DNA of 64,000 nucleotides, taken from NCBI GenBank assembly GCA_903945495.1, contig CAJAVU010000021.1, positions 335,594 through 399,593 of the forward strand. The letters run 5' to 3'. This stretch comes from an uncultured Flavobacteriales bacterium (GTDB taxonomy: Bacteria; Bacteroidota; Bacteroidia; Flavobacteriales_D; Crocinitomicaceae). A model generated the notes under the pieces. It was given only the letters and a program-made list of their open reading frames with translations. It did no database searches and was not told where the DNA came from. Numbering within the stretch: the stretch's first letter is position 1; each line of letters opens with the position of its first letter. A program made the position numbers and the translations under genes. Shown in pieces: positions 26,731-64,000 of the stretch.

Positions 26731-28017
26731 ATGAGCCATTTCGAAAATTCTTTAGCTTTTGCACAAGGTTTGGACGCAAAAGATCCATTAAAATCCTTCC
26801 GCGATAAGTTTTATTTCCCAACATTTCACGACAAAACTGTTCGATATTTCACAGGAAACTCGCTTGGATTACAACCAAAATCAACCAAAGAATACATTCT
26901 TGAAGAATTGGACGCTTGGGCTGAATACGGTGTTGAAGGACATTTTTTAGCAAAGCGTCCGTGGTTTGCTTACCACGAAAATTTAACGCAAAAAGCTGCG
27001 AACGTCGTTGGCGCATTACCAGTTGAAGTGGTGGTGACTCATTCCTTAACAACCAATCTACATTTATTGATGGTGTCGTTCTATCGCCCAGAAATCAACG
27101 GTAAACGAACAAAGATTTTATGCGAAGCGAAAGCTTTTCCAAGTGATCAATACGCTTTGGAATCACAAGTGAAATTTCATGGACTTGACCTAGCTGAACA
27201 TTTAGTGGAAGTAGCACCACGCGAAGGAGAGCAATTGATCCGTGAAGAAGATATTTTAGCGAAAATTGATGAATTAGGTGACGAATTAGCAATGGTAATG
27301 ATTGGTGGTGTAAACTATTACACGGGACAATTATTCGACATGGAAAAAATCACAAAGGCGGGTCATGCTGTTGGTGCAATCGTTGGTTTTGACTTGGCGC
27401 ATGCCGCAGGAAACATTAATCTTAAATTGCACGATTGGGGCGTAGATTTCGCTGCTTGGTGTGGTTACAAATACTTAAATTCTTCACCAGGTGGAGTAAG
27501 TGGAATGTTCGTACACGAACGTCATGCTTACAATCCTGAATTACCGCGTTTTGCTGGCTGGTGGGGTTACGACAAAGAAACGCGTTTCTTGATGCAACCA
27601 GGATTCAATCCAATGAAAGGAGCGGAAGGTTGGCAATTGAGTAACGCACCAATTCTTGGAATGGCAGCGCATTTAGCATCTTTAGATATTTTCGAAGAAG
27701 CAGGAATGGAGCGCATCGGAGAAAAACGCGATTTGATGACAGCCTACATGGAATTTGTCATTGACAATATTTCAGAAAAAAACAAAGAACGTTGCACATT
27801 TGAATTAATAACGCCGCGCGACAAAACAAAACGTGGAGCCCAATTGTCTATCATGGCGAAAGGACAAGGAAAAGCATTGTTTGATGCCTTGTCAGCTGAA
27901 GGAGTAGTAGCAGATTGGAGAGAACCAAATGTCATCCGAATCGCACCTGCACCATTATACAATTCATACGAGGATTGTTACTGGTTCGGGCAACTATTGG
28001 AAAAAGCAATACAATAG
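26731..28017 (+). CDS. kynU: Kynureninase
   Basis: 428 aa; FTGNSLGLQPKS, VGFDLAHAAGNINLKLHDWGVDFAAWCGYKYLNSSPG PLP-lysine region. Confidence 0.95.
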   Translation: MSHFENSLAFAQGLDAKDPLKSFRDKFYFPTFHDKTVRYFTGNSLGLQPKSTKEYILEELDAWAEYGVEGHFLAKRPWFAYHENLTQKAANVVGALPVEVVVTHSLTTNLHLLMVSFYRPEINGKRTKILCEAKAFPSDQYALESQVKFHGLDLAEHLVEVAPREGEQLIREEDILAKIDELGDELAMVMIGGVNYYTGQLFDMEKITKAGHAVGAIVGFDLAHAAGNINLKLHDWGVDFAAWCGYKYLNSSPGGVSGMFVHERHAYNPELPRFAGWWGYDKETRFLMQPGFNPMKGAEGWQLSNAPILGMAAHLASLDIFEEAGMERIGEKRDLMTAYMEFVIDNISEKNKERCTFELITPRDKTKRGAQLSIMAKGQGKALFDALSAEGVVADWREPNVIRIAPAPLYNSYEDCYWFGQLLEKAIQ

Positions 28018-28112: not shown

Positions 28113-28532
28113 ATGATAAAGAAATTTGAAGATTTAGGAGTTTGGCAAGAAGCAAGAGAGTTGTGTAAGGAAATTTATATGCACATTTCAAAGACTCCAT
28201 TTTCAAATGACTATGCACTTGTGAACCAAATCAATCGTTCAAGTGGATCTATCATGGATAATATTGCAGAAGGTTTTGAACGATCTGGAAATCGCGAGTT
28301 TATTCAATTTTTGACAATCAGTAAAGCATCTTGTGCAGAAGTAAAATCGCAAGTTTATCGTGCATTCGATCGCCAGTATTTGTCAGAAAGTGAAGTAGAA
28401 AAACTAAGTGCTAAAACACAAAGCCTCATCAATCAATTGGGAGGTTTTATACATTATTTAAAACAATCAGAATTTAAAGGAACGAAATTCAAGGAACCAG
28501 ATTTAGTCTATTTCCCAAATAACGAATCCTGA
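28113..28532 (+). CDS. Four-helix-bundle protein (S23/IVP family, Avd-like)
   Basis: 139 aa; KKFEDLGVWQEARELCKEIY, QINRSSGSIMDNIAEGFERSGNREFIQFLTISKASCAEVKSQVYRA. Confidence 0.9.
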   Translation: MIKKFEDLGVWQEARELCKEIYMHISKTPFSNDYALVNQINRSSGSIMDNIAEGFERSGNREFIQFLTISKASCAEVKSQVYRAFDRQYLSESEVEKLSAKTQSLINQLGGFIHYLKQSEFKGTKFKEPDLVYFPNNES

Positions 28533-28569: not shown

Positions 28570-29916
28570 ATGGAAAATAATAAAAAAGTAATCATCGTTG
28601 GAGCCGGCTTGGTTGGTTCATTGTGGTCAGTTTATTTATCAAAAGCAGGTTATTCTGTCACGATTTATGAACGTCGTCCCGATATTCGTAAAGCAGAAAT
28701 TTCTGCTGGAAAGTCAATTAATTTGGCCTTATCAAACAGAGGTTGGAAAGCATTGGATACTGTTGGTGTTGGTGATGAAATTCGCAAAATCGCGATTCCA
28801 ATGCACGGACGTGTGATGCACGACATGAAAGGAGATTTGACGTATCAACAATACGGTAAAGACGGCGAAGCGATTTACTCTGTTTCACGTGGAAAAGTCA
28901 ATGCAACCATGATGGACATTGCAGAAACACATGGAAAAGCAACGATTCATTACAACCACGATTGTCGAAAAGTGGATTTGAAAAACGGGATTGTTTACTT
29001 GACAAATTCCGTAACAGGTGAAGAAATCGTTGACAAAGCAGATTTAGTATTCGCTGCCGATGGAGCATTTTCTTCTGTGCGTTACAACTCAATGCAAAAA
29101 ACAGATCGCTTCCAATACAGTCAAAATTACATTGCTGATGGTTACCGCGAAATTTTACTTCCTGCAAATCCAGATGGTTCATACAGAATGGATAAAAACG
29201 CTTTGCATATTTGGCCACGTGGTCGTTTCATGATGATTGCCTTGGCAAACGAAGATGGTTCATTTACGTGTACTTTGTTCATGCCGCATGAAGGTGGAGA
29301 AAATGCCTTTGATAAATTAACATCGAAAGAAGCAGTTGATAATTTCTTCAAATCAACCTTCCCAGATTTCTATGAAATGATGCCAAACATCGCCGATGCG
29401 TGGGAAGATCATCCCTTATCTGCCTTGGCAATTGTTCGTTGTTATCCTTGGCACAATGGAAAAGTAGCTTTGATGGGTGACGCGGCGCATGCGACAGTTC
29501 CTTTCTACGGACAAGGAATGAATGCTGGTTTTGAAGATTGTACAGTTCTAAATGAATTGATGATCAAACACAACCACGATTGGGATGCAATTTTTGCGGA
29601 ATACAGTCCATTGCGTAAACCAGATGGTGATGCTTTACAAGATTTGTCGCTTGATAATTACTATGTAATGCGCGATTTTGTTGCAGATCCAGCGTTCTTA
29701 TTGCGTAAAAAAATCGAAGCAAAATTCAGTACTTTGTATCCAGAAAAGTGGATGCCGTTATACTCGCAAGTAACCTTCAGTGAAATTCGCTACAGTGTTG
29801 CGTATAAGCAAGGTCAAGTGCAAAATGGAATCATGGATCAAGTAATGGAGATGCCAAACATCGAACAAAACTGGGATTCAGAAGAAGTGATGCAAAAAAT
29901 CCTTTCCTTGTGTTAA
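28570..29916 (+). CDS. kmo: Kynurenine 3-monooxygenase (FAD-dependent)
   Basis: 448 aa; VIIVGAGLVGSLWSVYLSKAGYSVTIYERRPD, KSINLALSNRGWKAL, ALMGDAAHATVPFYGQGMNAGFEDC. Confidence 0.95.
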   Translation: MENNKKVIIVGAGLVGSLWSVYLSKAGYSVTIYERRPDIRKAEISAGKSINLALSNRGWKALDTVGVGDEIRKIAIPMHGRVMHDMKGDLTYQQYGKDGEAIYSVSRGKVNATMMDIAETHGKATIHYNHDCRKVDLKNGIVYLTNSVTGEEIVDKADLVFAADGAFSSVRYNSMQKTDRFQYSQNYIADGYREILLPANPDGSYRMDKNALHIWPRGRFMMIALANEDGSFTCTLFMPHEGGENAFDKLTSKEAVDNFFKSTFPDFYEMMPNIADAWEDHPLSALAIVRCYPWHNGKVALMGDAAHATVPFYGQGMNAGFEDCTVLNELMIKHNHDWDAIFAEYSPLRKPDGDALQDLSLDNYYVMRDFVADPAFLLRKKIEAKFSTLYPEKWMPLYSQVTFSEIRYSVAYKQGQVQNGIMDQVMEMPNIEQNWDSEEVMQKILSLC

Positions 29917-55877: not shown

Positions 55878-55885
55878 TATCTTTG
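55878..55885 (+). promoter_or_regulatory. Bacteroidetes -7 box-like motif TATCTTTG
   Basis: TATCTTTG, 19 bp upstream of the probable metF ATG at 55904. Confidence 0.5.
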
Positions 55886-55903
55886 CACTTCACGAATAAA
55901 GAA

Positions 55904-56854
55904 ATGAAAGTAACAGAACACCTTAAAGAAGCAAAAGACACCTTATTCTCTTTTGAAATTTTACCTCCATTAAAAGGAAAAAGTATTCAATCAATTTATG
56001 ACGGAATCGATCCTTTGATGGAATTTAAACCTCGTTTTGTCAATGTTACTTATCACCGTGAAGAATTCATCTACAAAGAGCGTGAAAACGGTTTGTTAGA
56101 GAAAATTGCCATTCGCAAACGTCCAGGAACTGTTGGGATTTGTGCGGCAATTATGAATAAATACCAAGTCGATGCTGTTCCTCACTTAATTTGTGGAGGA
56201 TTTAGTAAAGAGGAGACAGAAAATGCATTGATTGATTTGCAGTTTTTAGGAATTGACAATGTCTTAGCCTTACGTGGTGATTCAATCAAAACAGAATCAA
56301 CGTTTCGTCCGCACAAAGATGGTCACAAATATGCCGTTGAGTTAATTCAGCAAATTGGTGAAATGAATCATGGAACATACATGATGGATGATATTCAATT
56401 GGAACCAACTGATTTTTGTATTGGTACAGCTGGATATCCTGAAAAGCACTTTGAGGCAATGAATATGACAACCGATTTGCAATATTTGAAAGCGAAAGTA
56501 GATGCTGGAGCGGATTATATTGTGACACAAATGTTTTTCGATAATAAAAAATATTTTGATTTTGTTGCAGCTTGTCGTGAAATAGGAATTAACGTTCCAA
56601 TCATTCCAGGATTGAAGCCAATTAAGACAATGGATCACATTACGTTCCTTCCGAAATTCTTCAAGATTGATTATCCTGAAGCCTTGTCAAATGAGTTACT
56701 GAAATGCAAAGACAACAAGCAAGTTGAGCAATTGGGTATTGAATGGGGAATTCAGCAATCAAAAGAGTTGAAAGAAGCAGGCGCTCCATGTATTCATTAT
56801 TACACGATGTCTAATTCATCGATGGTAAAAGCGATTGCAAAAGAAATTTTTTAA
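55904..56854 (+). CDS. metF: Methylenetetrahydrofolate reductase
   Basis: MKVTEHLKEAKDTLFSFEILPPLKGKSIQ, LALRGDS, GADYIVTQMFFDN, IIPGLKPI. Start set at the internal Met. Confidence 0.95.
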   Translation: MKVTEHLKEAKDTLFSFEILPPLKGKSIQSIYDGIDPLMEFKPRFVNVTYHREEFIYKERENGLLEKIAIRKRPGTVGICAAIMNKYQVDAVPHLICGGFSKEETENALIDLQFLGIDNVLALRGDSIKTESTFRPHKDGHKYAVELIQQIGEMNHGTYMMDDIQLEPTDFCIGTAGYPEKHFEAMNMTTDLQYLKAKVDAGADYIVTQMFFDNKKYFDFVAACREIGINVPIIPGLKPIKTMDHITFLPKFFKIDYPEALSNELLKCKDNKQVEQLGIEWGIQQSKELKEAGAPCIHYYTMSNSSMVKAIAKEIF

Positions 56855-56881
56855 TTAATACCAACTAATCAACGTAAGCAT

Positions 56882-57418
56882 ATGAAAAATTTGACTTTAT
56901 TACTCCTTCTCTTAGTTGCTGTGAATGTGCAAGCGCAAAAAGAATCAATTCAATTGAAAAATGCATTGGTGGTTGGTCAATTAGATAAAGCAGAAGATCG
57001 TTATTCAGTGGAAATAAATTTAACTGAGTTGTTAACTGAAGCAGGTGTTAAGGCAATCCCATCGTTGAATATTTTAAAAATGGGAAGTGATGCTTCAATT
57101 ATTGCGACAGACTCAATTCAAAAGCTAATTGCCGCTAAAGGAATTGATACGTACATTTTAGTTTCAGTTCGTGGTTATGATAAAAAATTCAAAAAAACGC
57201 ATCGTAAAGATGAATTGAAAACAGCATTAGATGCTGGTAATTTATTTCCTATTTACCGTGATGAGGTTGTTTCCGTTAGTTTTGAGTTTATGTTCTACAG
57301 AAATGGTCAATTCATCGGAACGGACATTGTTAAGTGTGGAAATGTATCAAGTCGTGACACTGTGATCAAACGTTTCAGAAAGAGTGTTGCTAAACGAATT
57401 GAGAAGAGTTGGAAATAG
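56882..57418 (+). CDS. Hypothetical secreted protein
   Basis: 178 aa; signal peptide MKNLTLLLLLLVAVNVQAQ. Confidence 0.55.
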   Translation: MKNLTLLLLLLVAVNVQAQKESIQLKNALVVGQLDKAEDRYSVEINLTELLTEAGVKAIPSLNILKMGSDASIIATDSIQKLIAAKGIDTYILVSVRGYDKKFKKTHRKDELKTALDAGNLFPIYRDEVVSVSFEFMFYRNGQFIGTDIVKCGNVSSRDTVIKRFRKSVAKRIEKSWK

Positions 57419-57997
57419 TTATTTCCCCATCATCTTAGCAACGTATTTCCCGATAATATCAAATTCTAGATTAACCGTCGCACCAACTTCTAAGGTATGA
57501 AAGTTAGTATGATCATACGTATACGGAATAATGCAAACGGAAAATTCATGTGTTTTTGAATCAACAACTGTTAAGCTTGTTCCATTAATTGTAATAGAAC
57601 CTTTTTCAACGGTTAAATCAGCACTTTCATATCGGAAAGTATATTTCCAGCTGCCGTTTTGATCTTCAATTGCAATACAGGTTCCAGTTGTATCGACATG
57701 GCCTTGAACAATGTGTCCATCCAAACGTCCATTCATTTGCATGCAGCGTTCAAGATTGACTTTCGTTCCAACTTTCCATGAACCTAAATTGGTTTTAATC
57801 AGCGTTTCTTGAATGGCTGTAACGACGTATTCATTTCCAGAAATTTCAACAACAGTAAGGCAACAACCATTGTGTGCAACGCTCTGATCTATTTTCAATT
57901 CAGAGGTAAAAGGTGCTTCCAACGTGAAGTGAATATTTTCACTTTCCTTTTGAATGGATTTAACCACTCCTAATTGTTCGATGATTCCTGTAAACAT
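57419..57997 (-). CDS. ribE: Riboflavin synthase alpha chain
   Basis: 192 aa; MFTGIIEQLG, VAHNGCCLTVV, GHIVQGHVDTTG, duplicated lumazine-binding fold. Confidence 0.95.
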   Translation of the reverse strand: MFTGIIEQLGVVKSIQKESENIHFTLEAPFTSELKIDQSVAHNGCCLTVVEISGNEYVVTAIQETLIKTNLGSWKVGTKVNLERCMQMNGRLDGHIVQGHVDTTGTCIAIEDQNGSWKYTFRYESADLTVEKGSITINGTSLTVVDSKTHEFSVCIIPYTYDHTNFHTLEVGATVNLEFDIIGKYVAKMMGK

Positions 57998-58042
57998 TGT
58001 ATTTTTGCATAAAGTTACTTCAAAATTAATAGTTAGCCATTC

Positions 58043-58969
58043 ATGAAATCAAAATTCCTACTCGCGATTACTCTTCTTGTTCTTGGTTCTTGCAATTTGG
58101 TCAGAATGAAGAACAATCATACAGCGAAAGTTTTATTGAAAGATTCTATTGAAACAGCCAATTTTGATCTTGATTCCTTACATATAAAATATTGGAAAGG
58201 TGGTCAAGGTCCAACGCTTGTTTTTGTTCATGGTTTTGGTGGCGATGCCTTGATGACATGGGACCGTGAATTGGCACATTTTGCAAAAACACATACAGTT
58301 ATAACATACGATTTGTTATGGTTCGGAAAAAGTTATTCGAACGAGACACCCAATTTGTTAACCCAAACAGCCGCGTTAGAAAAGTTGTTGGCCTATCTGA
58401 AAGTCGATTCTGCAACCTTTGTTGGTCAAAGTTATGGCGGTTTTATTGCCCTAGATTTTGCAACACAACATCCTGAAATGATTCAAAAATTGGTGATTGC
58501 GAATAGCCCTGGATCTACATTTGATGTCTCATATTTAGATACAGTTTGCAAGAATTATGGGGTTACTAGAATAGATGAATTGTTTGTAATGGAACAGCCA
58601 AAGGATTTACAACGCTTGGTAAATATGTCAACCTACAAAAAACCTCACATCCCGAAATTTCTTTTGAAACAGATGTATACTGAATTTTGTGATCAGTATC
58701 ATCAAGAACAACGTTTATTATTGCAAACATTGCCAGCTGAAAAAGCACGCATTTCGAATATAGATCAAATTAAACAAATTCCAACCTTGGTTTTATGGGG
58801 TGAAAATGATGAATTGTTTCCAAAAGCTGAAGGGATAAAATTTGCCAATGCAGTGAACGCAAACTTCGTTTCGATTCCTAAATGTGGACATGCTGCTCAA
58901 ATTGATGATCATGACTCATTCCTAAAGTCTTTAAACGAGTTTATTAATGGTGTTAATCGTCAAGATTAG
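58043..58969 (+). CDS. Alpha/beta hydrolase (lipoprotein-like N-terminus)
   Basis: 308 aa; LVLGSCNL; TLVFVHGFGGDAL, FVGQSYGGFIALDFA, LVLWGENDELFP, CGHAAQIDDHDSF. Confidence 0.9.
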   Translation: MKSKFLLAITLLVLGSCNLVRMKNNHTAKVLLKDSIETANFDLDSLHIKYWKGGQGPTLVFVHGFGGDALMTWDRELAHFAKTHTVITYDLLWFGKSYSNETPNLLTQTAALEKLLAYLKVDSATFVGQSYGGFIALDFATQHPEMIQKLVIANSPGSTFDVSYLDTVCKNYGVTRIDELFVMEQPKDLQRLVNMSTYKKPHIPKFLLKQMYTEFCDQYHQEQRLLLQTLPAEKARISNIDQIKQIPTLVLWGENDELFPKAEGIKFANAVNANFVSIPKCGHAAQIDDHDSFLKSLNEFINGVNRQD

Positions 58970-60167
58970 AAAGTTTGAAACTATATAAGGTTCCTGTTTC
59001 TGTTGAATTTCTGGAATATTCTCCGTCCAATTGTTCTGTTAGTGTTTCGATTAATTGAAGGCCAAAAGAAGATTGATTTTCCTGTTCTTTCCAAGATCCA
59101 TTGTCTTCGTATGTAAGCAGTAATTGTCCGTCGAGTTCTGAAGTAAAGATGATATTAATAATTCCTTGGTTCTCAAAGGCATGCTTCATTGAATTAGAAA
59201 CGAGTTCAGCAACAAGAAGTGCCAGAGGAACAATTGTTTTGGAACCAACTTTATCTAAATTCGAAGTAACATTCACTTGAATAGGCAGCTGTACAGAAGT
59301 TGATCGAATTAAATCGTCGATGAGGGTTTTGAAATAATCCGATGCATCCATTTGCGACAAGTTCTTTTCTTGATACATTTTTTGGTGAATCAATGACATA
59401 GTCATCACACGGTTTATGGCATCGGTAAAGTGAACTTTTGCATCTTCGGATTCGATTTCAGCCGATTGTAAGCGCAAGAGACTCGTGATTACCTGTAAGT
59501 TGTTTTTTACACGATGATGAATTTCCTGTAAAAGAACTGTCTTTTCCTCGTTTTGAAGGCGAATCATTTTGTATTGTTCATTCAATTCTCCATTAGCTTG
59601 TCTAAACTTCCCTTCAGCGTGCGCTGTTGTATTTATAAAAATGTGAATGAAATAACCAATAATGAACATACAAAGGGTAAATTCTAGCATTAAACCAATC
59701 AATTCCATTTGAGAATAATTCTCTTTTAATGTTTCATTGGTATTCATAAAAAAATAGAAGTACAAAGAAACGCTAATGGCAATGATTGCCAATATAGTGT
59801 GTCCAACTTTCTTTCCAAGGTTAAAGAAGCCAAAAATGGCGATGATAATCATCCAAAGTGGTTCAATTATGTGAGGATTATTCTTAACCAAGAACATGGA
59901 TGAAATAACCAGGATCAAGGATGCTATTACATTGAAATAGGATACGATAATGAATCGTTTCGTAACAAGTAAATAGATTAAACCCGTTAATGAAATAAGA
60001 AATCCACTTAGATATTGGATAAAGGTTGTGATATTATGAAAGGAAAAGAATGCGGATATCACAAAAAGCCCAATGCATAAAATGACATTTACTCTCCATG
60101 CCGATTTAAATCGAGCGATGTCATAAAAATCTGTATAAGAATGTTTTGGTTCTTTAAAGAAGAGCAC
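58953..60167 (-). CDS. Sensor histidine kinase, HisKA_2-type
   Basis: 404 aa; about 6 TM; EIHHRVKNNLQVITSLLRLQSAEI; HATPase region (VAELVSNSMKHAF, SFGLQLIETL). Confidence 0.9.
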   Translation of the reverse strand: MLFFKEPKHSYTDFYDIARFKSAWRVNVILCIGLFVISAFFSFHNITTFIQYLSGFLISLTGLIYLLVTKRFIIVSYFNVIASLILVISSMFLVKNNPHIIEPLWMIIIAIFGFFNLGKKVGHTILAIIAISVSLYFYFFMNTNETLKENYSQMELIGLMLEFTLCMFIIGYFIHIFINTTAHAEGKFRQANGELNEQYKMIRLQNEEKTVLLQEIHHRVKNNLQVITSLLRLQSAEIESEDAKVHFTDAINRVMTMSLIHQKMYQEKNLSQMDASDYFKTLIDDLIRSTSVQLPIQVNVTSNLDKVGSKTIVPLALLVAELVSNSMKHAFENQGIINIIFTSELDGQLLLTYEDNGSWKEQENQSSFGLQLIETLTEQLDGEYSRNSTETGTLYSFKLSNLDD

Positions 60168-60219
60168 GGTCTAAATTTCAGTGAGTGATGAAGATAGCGT
60201 AAATTATAACATAAATCAA

Positions 60220-60663
60220 TTAGGGAACAAAATTATTTGCTTTCCATTTGCCTTTTTGAACAATTCCGTTAGCGAACCATAAAGTACCTTTTCCTTCTAG
60301 CAATCCATCTACGAATCCTCCTTCGTAATAATCTCCATTGGTCCAAGACATTGATCCTTTACCATTTTGTAAGCCCATGACCCAATTTCCTTCATAGGTT
60401 TCGCCAGTTTCCCAAACCATTTTTCCTTTTCCGTTTTGGAAATTATTTTTCCAGTTCCCTTCGTAATACGCACCACCTGACCAGAACATTTTTCCGAATC
60501 CATTGGCTAATCCATTTTCCATCTCGCCGATGTACTTATCACCAGAATCGTAAAATATTGTATCACCAAACTCCTGTGATAGAGAATCAAAACTGATAAA
60601 CGAAAATGAAATCAAAACAAGAAAAAGAGCTTTTTTCATACAATTGGGTTTTAGAATTCTCAA
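60220..60663 (-). CDS. MORN repeat protein
   Basis: 147 aa; consecutive MORN units (YIGEMENGLANGFGKMFW, YYEGNWKNNFQNGKGKMVW, TYEGNWVMGLQNGKGSMSW, YYEGGFVDGLLEGKGTLWF). Confidence 0.9.
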   Translation of the reverse strand: MRILKPNCMKKALFLVLISFSFISFDSLSQEFGDTIFYDSGDKYIGEMENGLANGFGKMFWSGGAYYEGNWKNNFQNGKGKMVWETGETYEGNWVMGLQNGKGSMSWTNGDYYEGGFVDGLLEGKGTLWFANGIVQKGKWKANNFVP

Positions 60664-60914
60664 AGATATTCATTTGATTTTCAAAATTCTTGAAAAAAGT
60701 TTGATTTTTTGAAAAATTCGCGAATGCTTTTAAAGTATTGAAAATCAATTATAAAAACGGTATTAACCGACAACAAACGAAAAATAGTCGAAAGAAAACG
60801 ACAAATAACCGAATCACGAAATTGAACCATCACAACTTTGCATCGTCGAATTCAGAATACGACTTCTGATCAGACACTTAACAAATTTTTCAAACTTTTT
60901 AAATTATTACAAAC

Positions 60915-61268
60915 ATGAACACATTACGCAACAAAGTAAGTTTGATTGGACGCCTTGGGGCACAACCAGAAGTAACAACTTTCGAATCTGGAAGTACATT
61001 AGCACGCTTCACATTAGCAACAAACGAAAGCTACAAAGACAAAAACGGGCAATGGCACGAAAACACACAATGGCATACAATCAATGCCTGGGGAAGAATT
61101 GCTGAACGTGTAAAAAAAGCGCTGAACAAAGGTCAAGAAGTGATTGTCGAAGGCAAATTAGTACACCAAACCTACGAAACAAAAACGGGTGAAAAACGCT
61201 ATGGCACAATCATCGAGGCAACGGAATTCTTGTTGTTGCAACCGAAATCAGAAACAACTCAAAAATAA
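60915..61268 (+). CDS. Single-stranded DNA-binding protein paralogue 1, no acidic tail
   Basis: 117 aa; NKVSLIGRLGAQPEVTTFESGSTLARFTLATNE, ENTQWHTINAWGRIAERV, GQEVIVEGKLVHQTYE. Confidence 0.92.
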   Translation: MNTLRNKVSLIGRLGAQPEVTTFESGSTLARFTLATNESYKDKNGQWHENTQWHTINAWGRIAERVKKALNKGQEVIVEGKLVHQTYETKTGEKRYGTIIEATEFLLLQPKSETTQK

Positions 61269-61283
61269 ACCTAATCTACCACC

Positions 61284-61309
61284 AATGGAGCCGTTAAGGC
61301 GGCTCCATT
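61284..61309 (+). terminator. Terminator/attenuator-like hairpin between SSB paralogues 1 and 2
   Basis: Perfect 10-bp stem AATGGAGCCG-ttaagg-CGGCTCCATT; T-tract short. Confidence 0.6.
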
Positions 61310-61323
61310 TAAAATCGTACAAA

Positions 61324-61635
61324 ATGAATCACGTTAATTTAATTGGAAAAGTGTGCTCAGCACCAAAAGTTGTTCAACTTCCTAGTGGAAGAAAAATCGC
61401 AAAATTTACCATGTCAACCAAAGAAATGTACTTGGATGAAACGGGTAAAACAAAATCAAGAAGCCAATGGCACCAACTTACAGCTTGGGGAAGATGGGTA
61501 CAAGTAATTGAAGAACTTGGTCAAGTGGGAATGGATTTGGCAGTGGAAGGAAAGTTAGTTTCTCGTTTCTATCAGCAGGAAGGACAGCGAAAATTTGTTT
61601 CTGAAGTTGAAGTGAATGATCTAATTATTCTGTAA
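61324..61635 (+). CDS. Single-stranded DNA-binding protein paralogue 2, no acidic tail
   Basis: MNHVNLIGKVCSAPKVVQLPSGRKIAKFTMSTKE, SQWHQLTAWGRW, DLAVEGKLVSRFYQ; 103 aa from ATG at 61324. Confidence 0.9.
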   Translation: MNHVNLIGKVCSAPKVVQLPSGRKIAKFTMSTKEMYLDETGKTKSRSQWHQLTAWGRWVQVIEELGQVGMDLAVEGKLVSRFYQQEGQRKFVSEVEVNDLIIL

Positions 61636-62042
61636 TGGAAACGACAATCATGACTCAGCGAAAAGATACTTTCTCCTTCGAAGATTTAATCGCATGGCAA
61701 AAAGGACATAAATTGCTCATTACTGTTTTTAAGCAATTGAAAGAAAAGGAAAGTACAGTTGATCGACAATTTGATGTTCAAATGAAGCAAACCGCAATTG
61801 CCATTTGCAGCCAAATCGCAGCGGGATACGAACAAAGTATTCCTTCAATAACGATTGATTTTCTTCGGAATGCAAAAGGTGCAGCAGCTTCCTTGACAAC
61901 GCAGATCATTCTAGCAAAAGAACTAGGTTATTTTGAAGCTGATTTAACATCAGAATTATATGCCTTAGCAAAAGAAGTTTCAAAAATTATCCAAGGCTTA
62001 ATCAATTACATCAGCAATAAAAATGAATCAAATTTAGCCTAA
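61635..62042 (+). CDS. Four-helix-bundle protein (S23/Avd-like)
   Basis: 135 aa; FSFEDLIAWQKGHKLLITVF, QTAIAICSQIAAGYEQSIPSITIDFLRNAKGAAASLTTQIILAKELGYF. Overlaps the SSB2 stop by one base (TAATG). Confidence 0.82.
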   Translation: METTIMTQRKDTFSFEDLIAWQKGHKLLITVFKQLKEKESTVDRQFDVQMKQTAIAICSQIAAGYEQSIPSITIDFLRNAKGAAASLTTQIILAKELGYFEADLTSELYALAKEVSKIIQGLINYISNKNESNLA

Positions 62043-62113
62043 GCGCTTTTCATGCATAACTCATTATACACAACTTAAATACACAATTCATTTCACCTTT
62101 AAAATTCACAAAT

Positions 62114-62437
62114 ATGACACTTAGAAATCACATTACACTTGTAGGAAACATTGGCACACAAGCTGAAATCACAAATTTCGATAACGGAAACAAAGTTGCA
62201 CGATTCAGCATTGCAACGGACAAAACGTATCGAGCAAACAATGGAAAAATAAAATCCGACACCGAGTGGCACCGCGTTTTTGCCTGGGGAAACATGGCTC
62301 AGTTCATCGAACAATACGCCGAAAAGGGTAAAAAAGTGGCAATTCACGGAAGACTGGTTAACCGCACATATTTAAATCAAGAAGGTGTGAAACGCAGTGT
62401 CACCGAAGTCGAATTACGACATATAATTGGATTATAA
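62114..62437 (+). CDS. Single-stranded DNA-binding protein paralogue 3, no acidic tail
   Basis: 107 aa; NHITLVGNIGTQAEITNFDNGNKVARFSIATDK, DTEWHRVFAWGNMAQFIE, KKVAIHGRLVNRTY. Confidence 0.92.
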   Translation: MTLRNHITLVGNIGTQAEITNFDNGNKVARFSIATDKTYRANNGKIKSDTEWHRVFAWGNMAQFIEQYAEKGKKVAIHGRLVNRTYLNQEGVKRSVTEVELRHIIGL

Positions 62438-62582
62438 ACGGCGATTCGATTAGTAGAGAGGTTCCCAAAAATTTAGGTGATAGATGGATATAGGTAAGTT
62501 TAAACTTCTCCACTAATTGACTCCCGTTTTTAATGAAGCTCCCGACACTTAACCTACCAATTTTACGATGTGCAGGGACTCA

Positions 62583-62616
62583 AAAAAAGCGATCATAGAA
62601 ATATGGTCGCTTTTTA
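62583..62616 (-). terminator. Rho-independent terminator for the 62620 minus-strand gene
   Basis: AAAAAGCGATCAT-agaaat-ATGGTCGCTTTTT. Confidence 0.75.
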
Positions 62617-62619
62617 TGT

Positions 62620-64000
62620 TTAATAATTTCTATAATCGTTCCATAAAGAACTTCGAATCCCAATCATTGGAATGTACATTGTTGATTTAAACGCACTATC
62701 GTAGCGCAATTGGTTTTCGAAAAATGCTTGAAGATTCCCATGAGCAACCAATTGATAGGAAACAGTTAAACTCAATCGCAAACCATTATTTCCTATTCCT
62801 TGTCCAATAAAATTACCATAATCGTTTGGTCGCAACGTATAAGATTGATATAAATTTCCACCATAACTATATCCATCTTTGTCATATCCTCGAAGAAAGT
62901 AACTCGCAAATCCTTTGAAGGACCACTTATTAACTTGCATTTTATATTCTCCTAGAAGTTCCATAAAATTAGAACCATAAGGATGCGACAAAGTCATACC
63001 TTGGTTCCCGTAATTCTGACCTGAATTCAAATGCGCATACGTATATGGACGAACAAAATTGTACTCCAAACGATAAAATGATTTAGCTTTTCTACTTCCA
63101 AATCTACCTTTGATACCCAACTGACCACCGTATTTATTAGCCCACCAGCCAGATTTTGCTTTCACTTCTGCCAAAAAGAACTCATCTAGAATAAATTGAC
63201 CATACAACATGTGTTTCTTGTATTTGGCACTGAAACTCAATCCCAAAACAACATTATCCGAAGACCCCATCGCGTATTCTTGAGGTCGATAGAAAATAAC
63301 AGGATTCAAGTATTCAGCATCGTAGCCACGATTCAACAAGGTGTCTTTAGGTTGGAATATTACAGATTCAAAAACACCAATGTTCAACCATTTTGTTGCG
63401 TTTAAACTAATATGATGCGAAACACCATTTTTCATTTTCCACTTTTCGCCAGATTGTTCGCGGAAAAATTGATATAAAACACTGTATTCAACTCGCCAAA
63501 AACGCACTTTAATTGATCCAAACGGATAGGGTTTTCCATAATCACTTAAAAATAAAGAGCGATTTCCTTCACCTATAAAATTATGATCTAATCCTACCTG
63601 AAAATTGAAGATAGAATTTGGTGTATAAGACAATCTTCCTCTTAAATCGGTGTATAGGAAATTGCGGCCCATAGAATCAATGATAAACGCTTTTGGTTCA
63701 AATAGTGAATCAGCGTGCGACAGCCCTTCAACAGCGCCTATACGAATAAACCATTTTTCTTTAAATGTACTTTCCAATTGAACGCCTAATCCACCACGAA
63801 ATTCGGATTGATTGGAATAGCGGAAACCAGCGTCGATTAAACCAGTTATTGATAAGTATGATTTTTTTTCACCGGTTGAATCTGATGTTTTATTTATTAA
63901 ACGCGTTTGAGGTAAATAACCTGAATGGACGGTAACTGAATTTTTTTGAATAGAATCAGAAGGCATTTCTTCATACAACAGTCCTACAGTTCCTTGTGAA
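62620..64000 (-). CDS. Outer-membrane beta-barrel protein, capsule assembly Wzi/RemB-like (N-terminus truncated by window edge)
   Basis: Frame continues open to the window end (SQGTVGLLYEEMPS...). Wzi-like YLNPVIFYRPQEYAMGSSDNVVLGLSFSAKY; long alternating beta-strand pattern. Confidence 0.65.
   Translation of the reverse strand, partial: SQGTVGLLYEEMPSDSIQKNSVTVHSGYLPQTRLINKTSDSTGEKKSYLSITGLIDAGFRYSNQSEFRGGLGVQLESTFKEKWFIRIGAVEGLSHADSLFEPKAFIIDSMGRNFLYTDLRGRLSYTPNSIFNFQVGLDHNFIGEGNRSLFLSDYGKPYPFGSIKVRFWRVEYSVLYQFFREQSGEKWKMKNGVSHHISLNATKWLNIGVFESVIFQPKDTLLNRGYDAEYLNPVIFYRPQEYAMGSSDNVVLGLSFSAKYKKHMLYGQFILDEFFLAEVKAKSGWWANKYGGQLGIKGRFGSRKAKSFYRLEYNFVRPYTYAHLNSGQNYGNQGMTLSHPYGSNFMELLGEYKMQVNKWSFKGFASYFLRGYDKDGYSYGGNLYQSYTLRPNDYGNFIGQGIGNNGLRLSLTVSYQLVAHGNLQAFFENQLRYDSAFKSTMYIPMIGIRSSLWNDYRNY

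Follow-up and report, generated by a model that had tools for sequence, protein, structure and literature searches.

The locus examined here raises the question of why a bacterium should keep three short SSB genes in a row in addition to its housekeeping SSB, how these genes are regulated, and what role is played by a four-helix-bundle gene that is embedded among them. It is part of a stretch of 64,000 nucleotides (the window) from an uncultured Flavobacteriales bacterium of the family Crocinitomicaceae. The genes of the locus are as follows:

60915–61268, plus strand: ssb1 (SSB1, 117 aa, tail-less, basic; PF00436, 4.8e-31, 107 bits; one of three position clades)
61324–61635, plus strand: ssb2 (SSB2, 103 aa, tail-less, basic; PF00436, 4.4e-21, 75 bits; clade support 99)
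61635–62042, plus strand: S23-family four-helix-bundle gene between ssb2 and ssb3 (135 aa; PF05635, 3e-18, 66 bits; TIGR02436)
62114–62437, plus strand: ssb3 (SSB3, 107 aa, tail-less, basic; PF00436, 3e-29, 102 bits; position clade)

The four ORFs of the preliminary description are real and co-directional, its three divergent SSB-fold products all exceeding the PF00436 cut-off of 26 bits, and the overlap of the SSB2 stop with the ATG of the S23 gene (TAATG) was seen again. The mechanical ORF of SSB2 begins at GTG 61189; position 61324 is the correct start, because the N-terminal sequence MNHVNLIG(K/Q) is near-invariant among the orthologues (alignment A1). Rfam gave no match between 58000 and 64000, where no rRNA is present, and PADLOC gave no convincing match.

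SSB1, SSB2 and SSB3 share 35–39% pairwise identity. An SSB-type OB fold is present in all three, and the aromatic residues that stack on ssDNA, at positions 40, 54, 60 and 88 of Escherichia coli SSB, are kept in all three clades (W40>Y, W54, F60>W, W88>Y). The chains stop right behind the OB fold; the most distinctive of them is SSB2, with the N-terminus MNHVNLIG and the C-terminus NDLIIL. The acidic C-terminal tip is missing from all three, as had been claimed, and likewise from the other trio tails inspected, while it is present in the housekeeping copies. The proteins are basic (pI 9.43, 9.17 and 9.91 for SSB1, SSB2 and SSB3), and the median pI of the three clades is 9.4, 9.3 and 10.0, respectively, as compared to 5.1 for the housekeeping group.

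In total, five SSB genes are present in this genome of 3.64 Mb (114 contigs). A tailed housekeeping ssb, which the earlier reading had expected elsewhere, was found on contig C35, flanked by mutY and a gldE-like gene; its product ends in GDDSDLPF and has a pI of 5.29. The trio is, thus, not a set of redundant housekeeping SSBs. The fifth SSB gene (L005, 1378–1851; G000:C21:302845), about 90 kb away from the trio and adjoining an N-acetylmuramoyl-L-alanine-amidase-like gene, encodes a divergent, acid-tailed protein that terminates in LDEDDF and does not have the usual DDDLPF end.

In the family, ssb1-ssb2-ssb3 recurs with order and strand unchanged in about 20 genera, counted over the sampled family genomes; named records with the trio include Crocinitomicaceae, Fluviicola and Taishania. 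Of the 71 family genomes, 53 have an SSB2 orthologue (threshold at least 126 bits, next score 111); the 199 genomes of the order yielded none outside this family. In a tree built from 36 complete trios, the sequences group strictly by position, with 36 sequences in each clade, no intruder, clade supports of 89/99/88 and the minimum of 3 changes among 4 groups; therefore, one early triplication was followed by the retention of each copy in its place. Some relatives have two of the trio genes or one, in samples that are partly metagenome-assembled and where broken contigs have cut off some clusters. Outside the family, genomes of the order and class mostly have one short SSB and sometimes two. 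The genes flanking the trio vary between genera; hence, either the cassette relocates or the genes around it turn over, with the trio staying together. That it has been kept together for so long suggests that the subunits may have different roles or may form a mixed complex. Of the proposed SSB-SSB-4HB-SSB synteny, the family-wide order of the SSB genes held, while the four-helix-bundle gene is missing from most trios; as a conserved unit this arrangement was, therefore, dismissed, the core being SSB-SSB-SSB.

Regulation of the operon appears to involve a sequence about 100 bp 5′ of ssb1, outside the coordinates of the preliminary description, with these features:

60755–60856, plus strand: conserved ssb1 promoter region of 102 bp (gap-free in alignment A3 of 36 loci; match of profile R1 in the genome, E=5e-19)
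60758–60814, plus strand: array of six ~10-bp boxes with a TTACAAACGA-like consensus (CG peaks, periodicity)
60834–60849, plus strand: -7-type element AACTTTGCATCGTCGA, then conserved GTCGA (TTTG and GTC invariant in A3)

The CG steps of the six boxes are located at 60758, 60768, 60778, 60789, 60799 and 60810, corresponding to A3 columns 4, 14, 24, 35, 45 and 56. Their period is about 10.4 bp and their phase coherence 0.97, versus 0.43 for random positions, placing the boxes on one face of the helix. They are followed by ACTTTGCA-N2-GTCGA, where GTCGA is the likely transcription start. Bacteroidetes sigma-A promoters carry the -7 box TAnnTTTG, which the ACTTTG of the ssb1 promoter resembles as a variant (PMC9723704).

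Of 12 genomes, 11 give one strong match each to the sequence-only profile R1, at the trio operon. The exception is G017, where the contig ends at the cluster and the full site is, therefore, lost; in G012, the promoter was found on a separate contig end (C13). Across the class, a wider profile, R2, has matches in 149 of 296 genomes, representing 88 of 167 genera. Among its 30 best matches—some from genomes of the training set, many from outside it—28 lie no further than 500 bp from a short ssb, and nine also have a gene for a treble-clef protein near or across the array. The E-values of both profiles are rough owing to a short calibration. Set aside were R1 matches with E about 1e-3 (G000, G001, G037), which are inside or behind coding genes, a weak R1 match in G009 (L292) close to a treble-clef gene, unconvincing on reading, and arrays in G480, G613 and most of G553, which look like repeats peculiar to those genomes and were left out of the regulon. 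The predicted phased-box promoter is ancient in the class.

The treble-clef protein (about 120 aa; CLECGEK...FCSDxCRN; weak DUF2116/zf-FCS) is encoded divergently from a short ssb across the array in many families (L195, L196, L312, L401, L405, L409, L413, L415, L417, L420, L425, L426, L438, L447 and L449). No curated family covers it.

One might regard the array as the operator of an SOS-like response to DNA damage, the trio then guarding ssDNA at stalled forks in the manner of the SOS-induced ssb of other bacteria. For this speaks that the predicted Bacteroidetes SOS regulon holds ssb and recQ in several species, and its LexA operators are known as CTAA-N5-TTAG and GGA-N5-TCC (PMC8565304). 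Neither operator is, however, present upstream of the ssb1 gene of the window, and among 153 upstream regions they occur in only 4 and 2, respectively, with 1.2 and 2.9 in shuffled sequences.

Other genes behind the array bear on the same question; the regulon beyond ssb is drawn from about ten sites that were picked from ranked lists. An array match precedes recQ in G186 (E=1.6e-9), and arrays are found at tyrosine recombinases of the XerA/integron-integrase type in G018, G052, G071, G092 and G411, being oriented away from the recombinase in G071 and G092. In G522, an IS200-type Y1 transposase (an ssDNA transposase) and a PolB-like 3′-5′ exonuclease each begin right behind an array (L433, L434). 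The substrates of such enzymes are ssDNA or recombination intermediates. The sharing of the array with recQ and recombinases would agree with a damage response; however, no lexA, dinB, umuC or imuB was found among the 20 class-wide secondary sites fetched. Overall, we consider this explanation rather unlikely.

The secondary targets are sporadic, with the recQ array in one genome and no array at most recombinase loci. A general recQ or recombinase promoter was, thus, ruled out (one of six close recQ orthologues, few recombinase loci), and these targets are a hint at the condition in which the array fires, no proof of a fixed regulon. In G480, where 11 array-like matches occur, one of them is found about 0.8 kb upstream of recA. 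Neither comEC nor dprA nor comF was seen among the secondary promoter sites inspected.

At G000:C44 of the own genome, no repeats were found near the recombinase, which ruled out a cassette array there. On G193:C1 and C2, at least 12 near-equal genes for 300-aa tyrosine recombinases probably represent an abundant recombinase-borne element. L322 (G047:C20:69000-87567) consists of about 18 kb of repeats of ~180–380 bp in one orientation, between unrelated ORFs that include a toxin-antitoxin-like pair and a possible RT; box arrays occur within the repeats, and the region has the look of a cassette array.

A derivation of the trio from the SSBs of plasmids, ICEs or phages, as a domesticated or anti-defence relic, was considered as well. 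Similar short SSBs are found beside DUF5712 mobilisation and coupling-protein genes in some Flavobacteriaceae (L187, L189), and there are matches to PHROG 44. The phased promoter is, however, missing at seven mobilisation-linked short SSBs (L159, L161, L162, L171, L172, L175 and L177), the trio tracks the host family and is placed between chromosomal genes, and no integrase is present among the neighbouring genes checked, which makes a mobile origin quite improbable. In Flavobacteriaceae-like genomes, the short SSBs of L187, L189 and L193 belong to mobilisable elements, where they form an invariant block together with DUF5712 and a coupling-protein-like ATPase; the phased promoter is missing there too. 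A 509-aa gene adjoining ssb in Flavobacterium, considered as a candidate ComM, turned out to encode a CN-hydrolase/GNAT fusion.

The product of the embedded gene at 61635 belongs to the S23 family, as initially proposed, according to its matches to PF05635 and TIGR02436 and to a confident four-helix-bundle model (AF2, pLDDT 84), which is nearest to the S23 crystal structures 2gsc (the best PDB match) and 2rld, with TM scores of 0.65–0.75 by query length. The supposition that it is basic did not survive: with a pI of 5.84, the protein is acidic.

The S23 gene is a facultative insertion outside the conserved core. It is missing from the trios of the congeners G017, G037 and G051; within the genus of the window, it is kept in the sister species L450, L452 and L455 and missing in L451, L453, L454, L456 and L457, the first three of which are named relatives. 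Across 160 loci (1.19 Mb), every gap between ssb genes of more than 310 nt is filled by an S23 gene and by no other gene type. This is the case at six loci, i.e., in the window, G012, G026, G042, G055 and G061, the last belonging to another family. In G004, an S23 gene is located just downstream of the ssb cluster, and one further S23 gene was found elsewhere in the flanks of the 160 loci.

Given an S23 frequency of about 4.6 genes per genome, 163 gaps should contain 0.39 internal copies, an expectation that assumes a gene count and was computed after the data had been seen. Post hoc Poisson probabilities are 4e-6 for the six internal copies and 7e-3 for three independent events. Since S23 recurs in ssb clusters far beyond chance, its pairing with ssb is no accident. 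On the S23 tree, the ten cluster copies force at least three label changes and suggest six; a single embedded lineage travelling with ssb was rejected (AU p=8e-5), with two subgroups inseparable. The copies of the window and of L450 are 84% identical, and their dN/dS of about 0.04, at saturated dS, indicates that the gene is under purifying selection.

It may still be that S23 is a selfish or neutral hitch-hiker between co-directional genes, comparable to the S23 ORFs of 23S rRNA intervening sequences and unconnected with the SSBs. Its abundance in the genomes, its absence from most trios and the several lineages found in ssb clusters would fit this, as would the S23 ORF of Coxiella, which has been called selfish and probably not expressed (PMC4990558). 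Against it are the excess of internal copies, with a further one adjacent, the restriction of the long inter-ssb gaps to this gene type, the low dN/dS, and G012, whose sole S23 gene is the copy in the ssb cluster. Hitch-hiking is, hence, a serious contender, to which we assign somewhat less than an even chance. A second S23 gene of the window (28113–28532) is likewise situated inside a co-directional gene row, between a kynureninase-like gene (26731–28017) and a kmo-like monooxygenase gene (28570–29916). In a distant family, an S23 gene directly follows an array-like sequence (L441, 2135–2548; G553:C30); G553 has several similar repeats, and this pairing may be chance. The recurrent pairing with SSBs is a concrete lead on the role of the S23 family, which is very common and has no assigned function.

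Taken together, the trio points to dedicated, so far undescribed handling of ssDNA. The explanation that we favour, at about even probability, is that of a co-regulated accessory module for ssDNA coating, in which three tail-less SSBs are produced from one regulated operon. A regulator would bind the six phased boxes cooperatively and switch the operon on when ssDNA needs handling in DNA uptake, recombination or repair. SSB1–3, singly or as a hetero-oligomer—the latter proposed from the co-conservation of the three genes—would then coat and protect ssDNA, the loss of the tip keeping away those proteins of replication and repair that recognise the acidic C-terminus of the housekeeping SSB. The S23 protein would have been recruited into the operon in some lineages, probably as an optional partner. 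From the sequences at hand, the trio would thus serve ssDNA handling, with DNA uptake, damage or element transfer as the possible trigger. A more far-reaching version, i.e., an ancient, LexA-independent ssDNA regulon of Bacteroidota under a regulator that recognises six helically phased boxes, whose core in Crocinitomicaceae would be an RPA-like three-SSB heteromer with recurrent S23 recruitment, is doubtful.

Trio and promoter would offer an entry point to the handling of incoming or damaged ssDNA in Bacteroidota, which has hardly been studied in this phylum. The promoter signature is strong enough to find such ssb genes class-wide, and the array is short and conserved, so that its regulator could be fished directly.

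Among known systems, the Bacteroidetes SOS regulon is likewise predicted to include ssb and recQ; its operators are, however, absent here, where a six-box phased array is present. For the embedded protein, Pfam, TIGRFAM and fold all agree with the S23 family (2gsc, 2rld; the 23S rRNA intervening sequence proteins), whose founding members are located inside a 23S rRNA intervening sequence, whereas the S23 gene of the window is placed between ssb genes. Avd (4dwl, 8ub7) has the four-helix fold in common with it, at TM scores of 0.62–0.69 by query length and weak E-values, while sequence similarity is below detection; moreover, Avd is a basic pentameric barrel and the S23 protein is acidic. As none of the genes around the locus (55883–63978) encodes an RT domain, a diversity-generating retroelement with Avd was ruled out. 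The suggestion of an ssDNA module with retroelement character, thus, holds in part: the promoter is sporadically common to recombination genes, and the retroelement link is a shared fold only.

RPA, the heterotrimeric ssDNA-binding complex of eukaryotes and archaea, is similar in that three distinct OB-fold subunits are retained together; however, the chains of the trio each consist of one OB fold of the bacterial SSB type, and a complex of the three would be predicted from their co-conservation. The trio also resembles the SsbB of naturally transformable Firmicutes (pneumococcus and Bacillus subtilis), a second, specialised SSB beside the housekeeping one with separate regulation. Pneumococcal SsbB maintains a store of ssDNA taken up by the cell; its tail-less derivative SsbB-delta7 (pI 9.39) binds such ssDNA and stabilises it (PMC3128108). 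The pneumococcal protein is, however, single and keeps its acidic tail, while here three tail-less paralogues are encoded in one operon behind another promoter. While the accessory SSBs known so far, such as those of competence, occur one at a time, the trio is a fixed set of three without tails.
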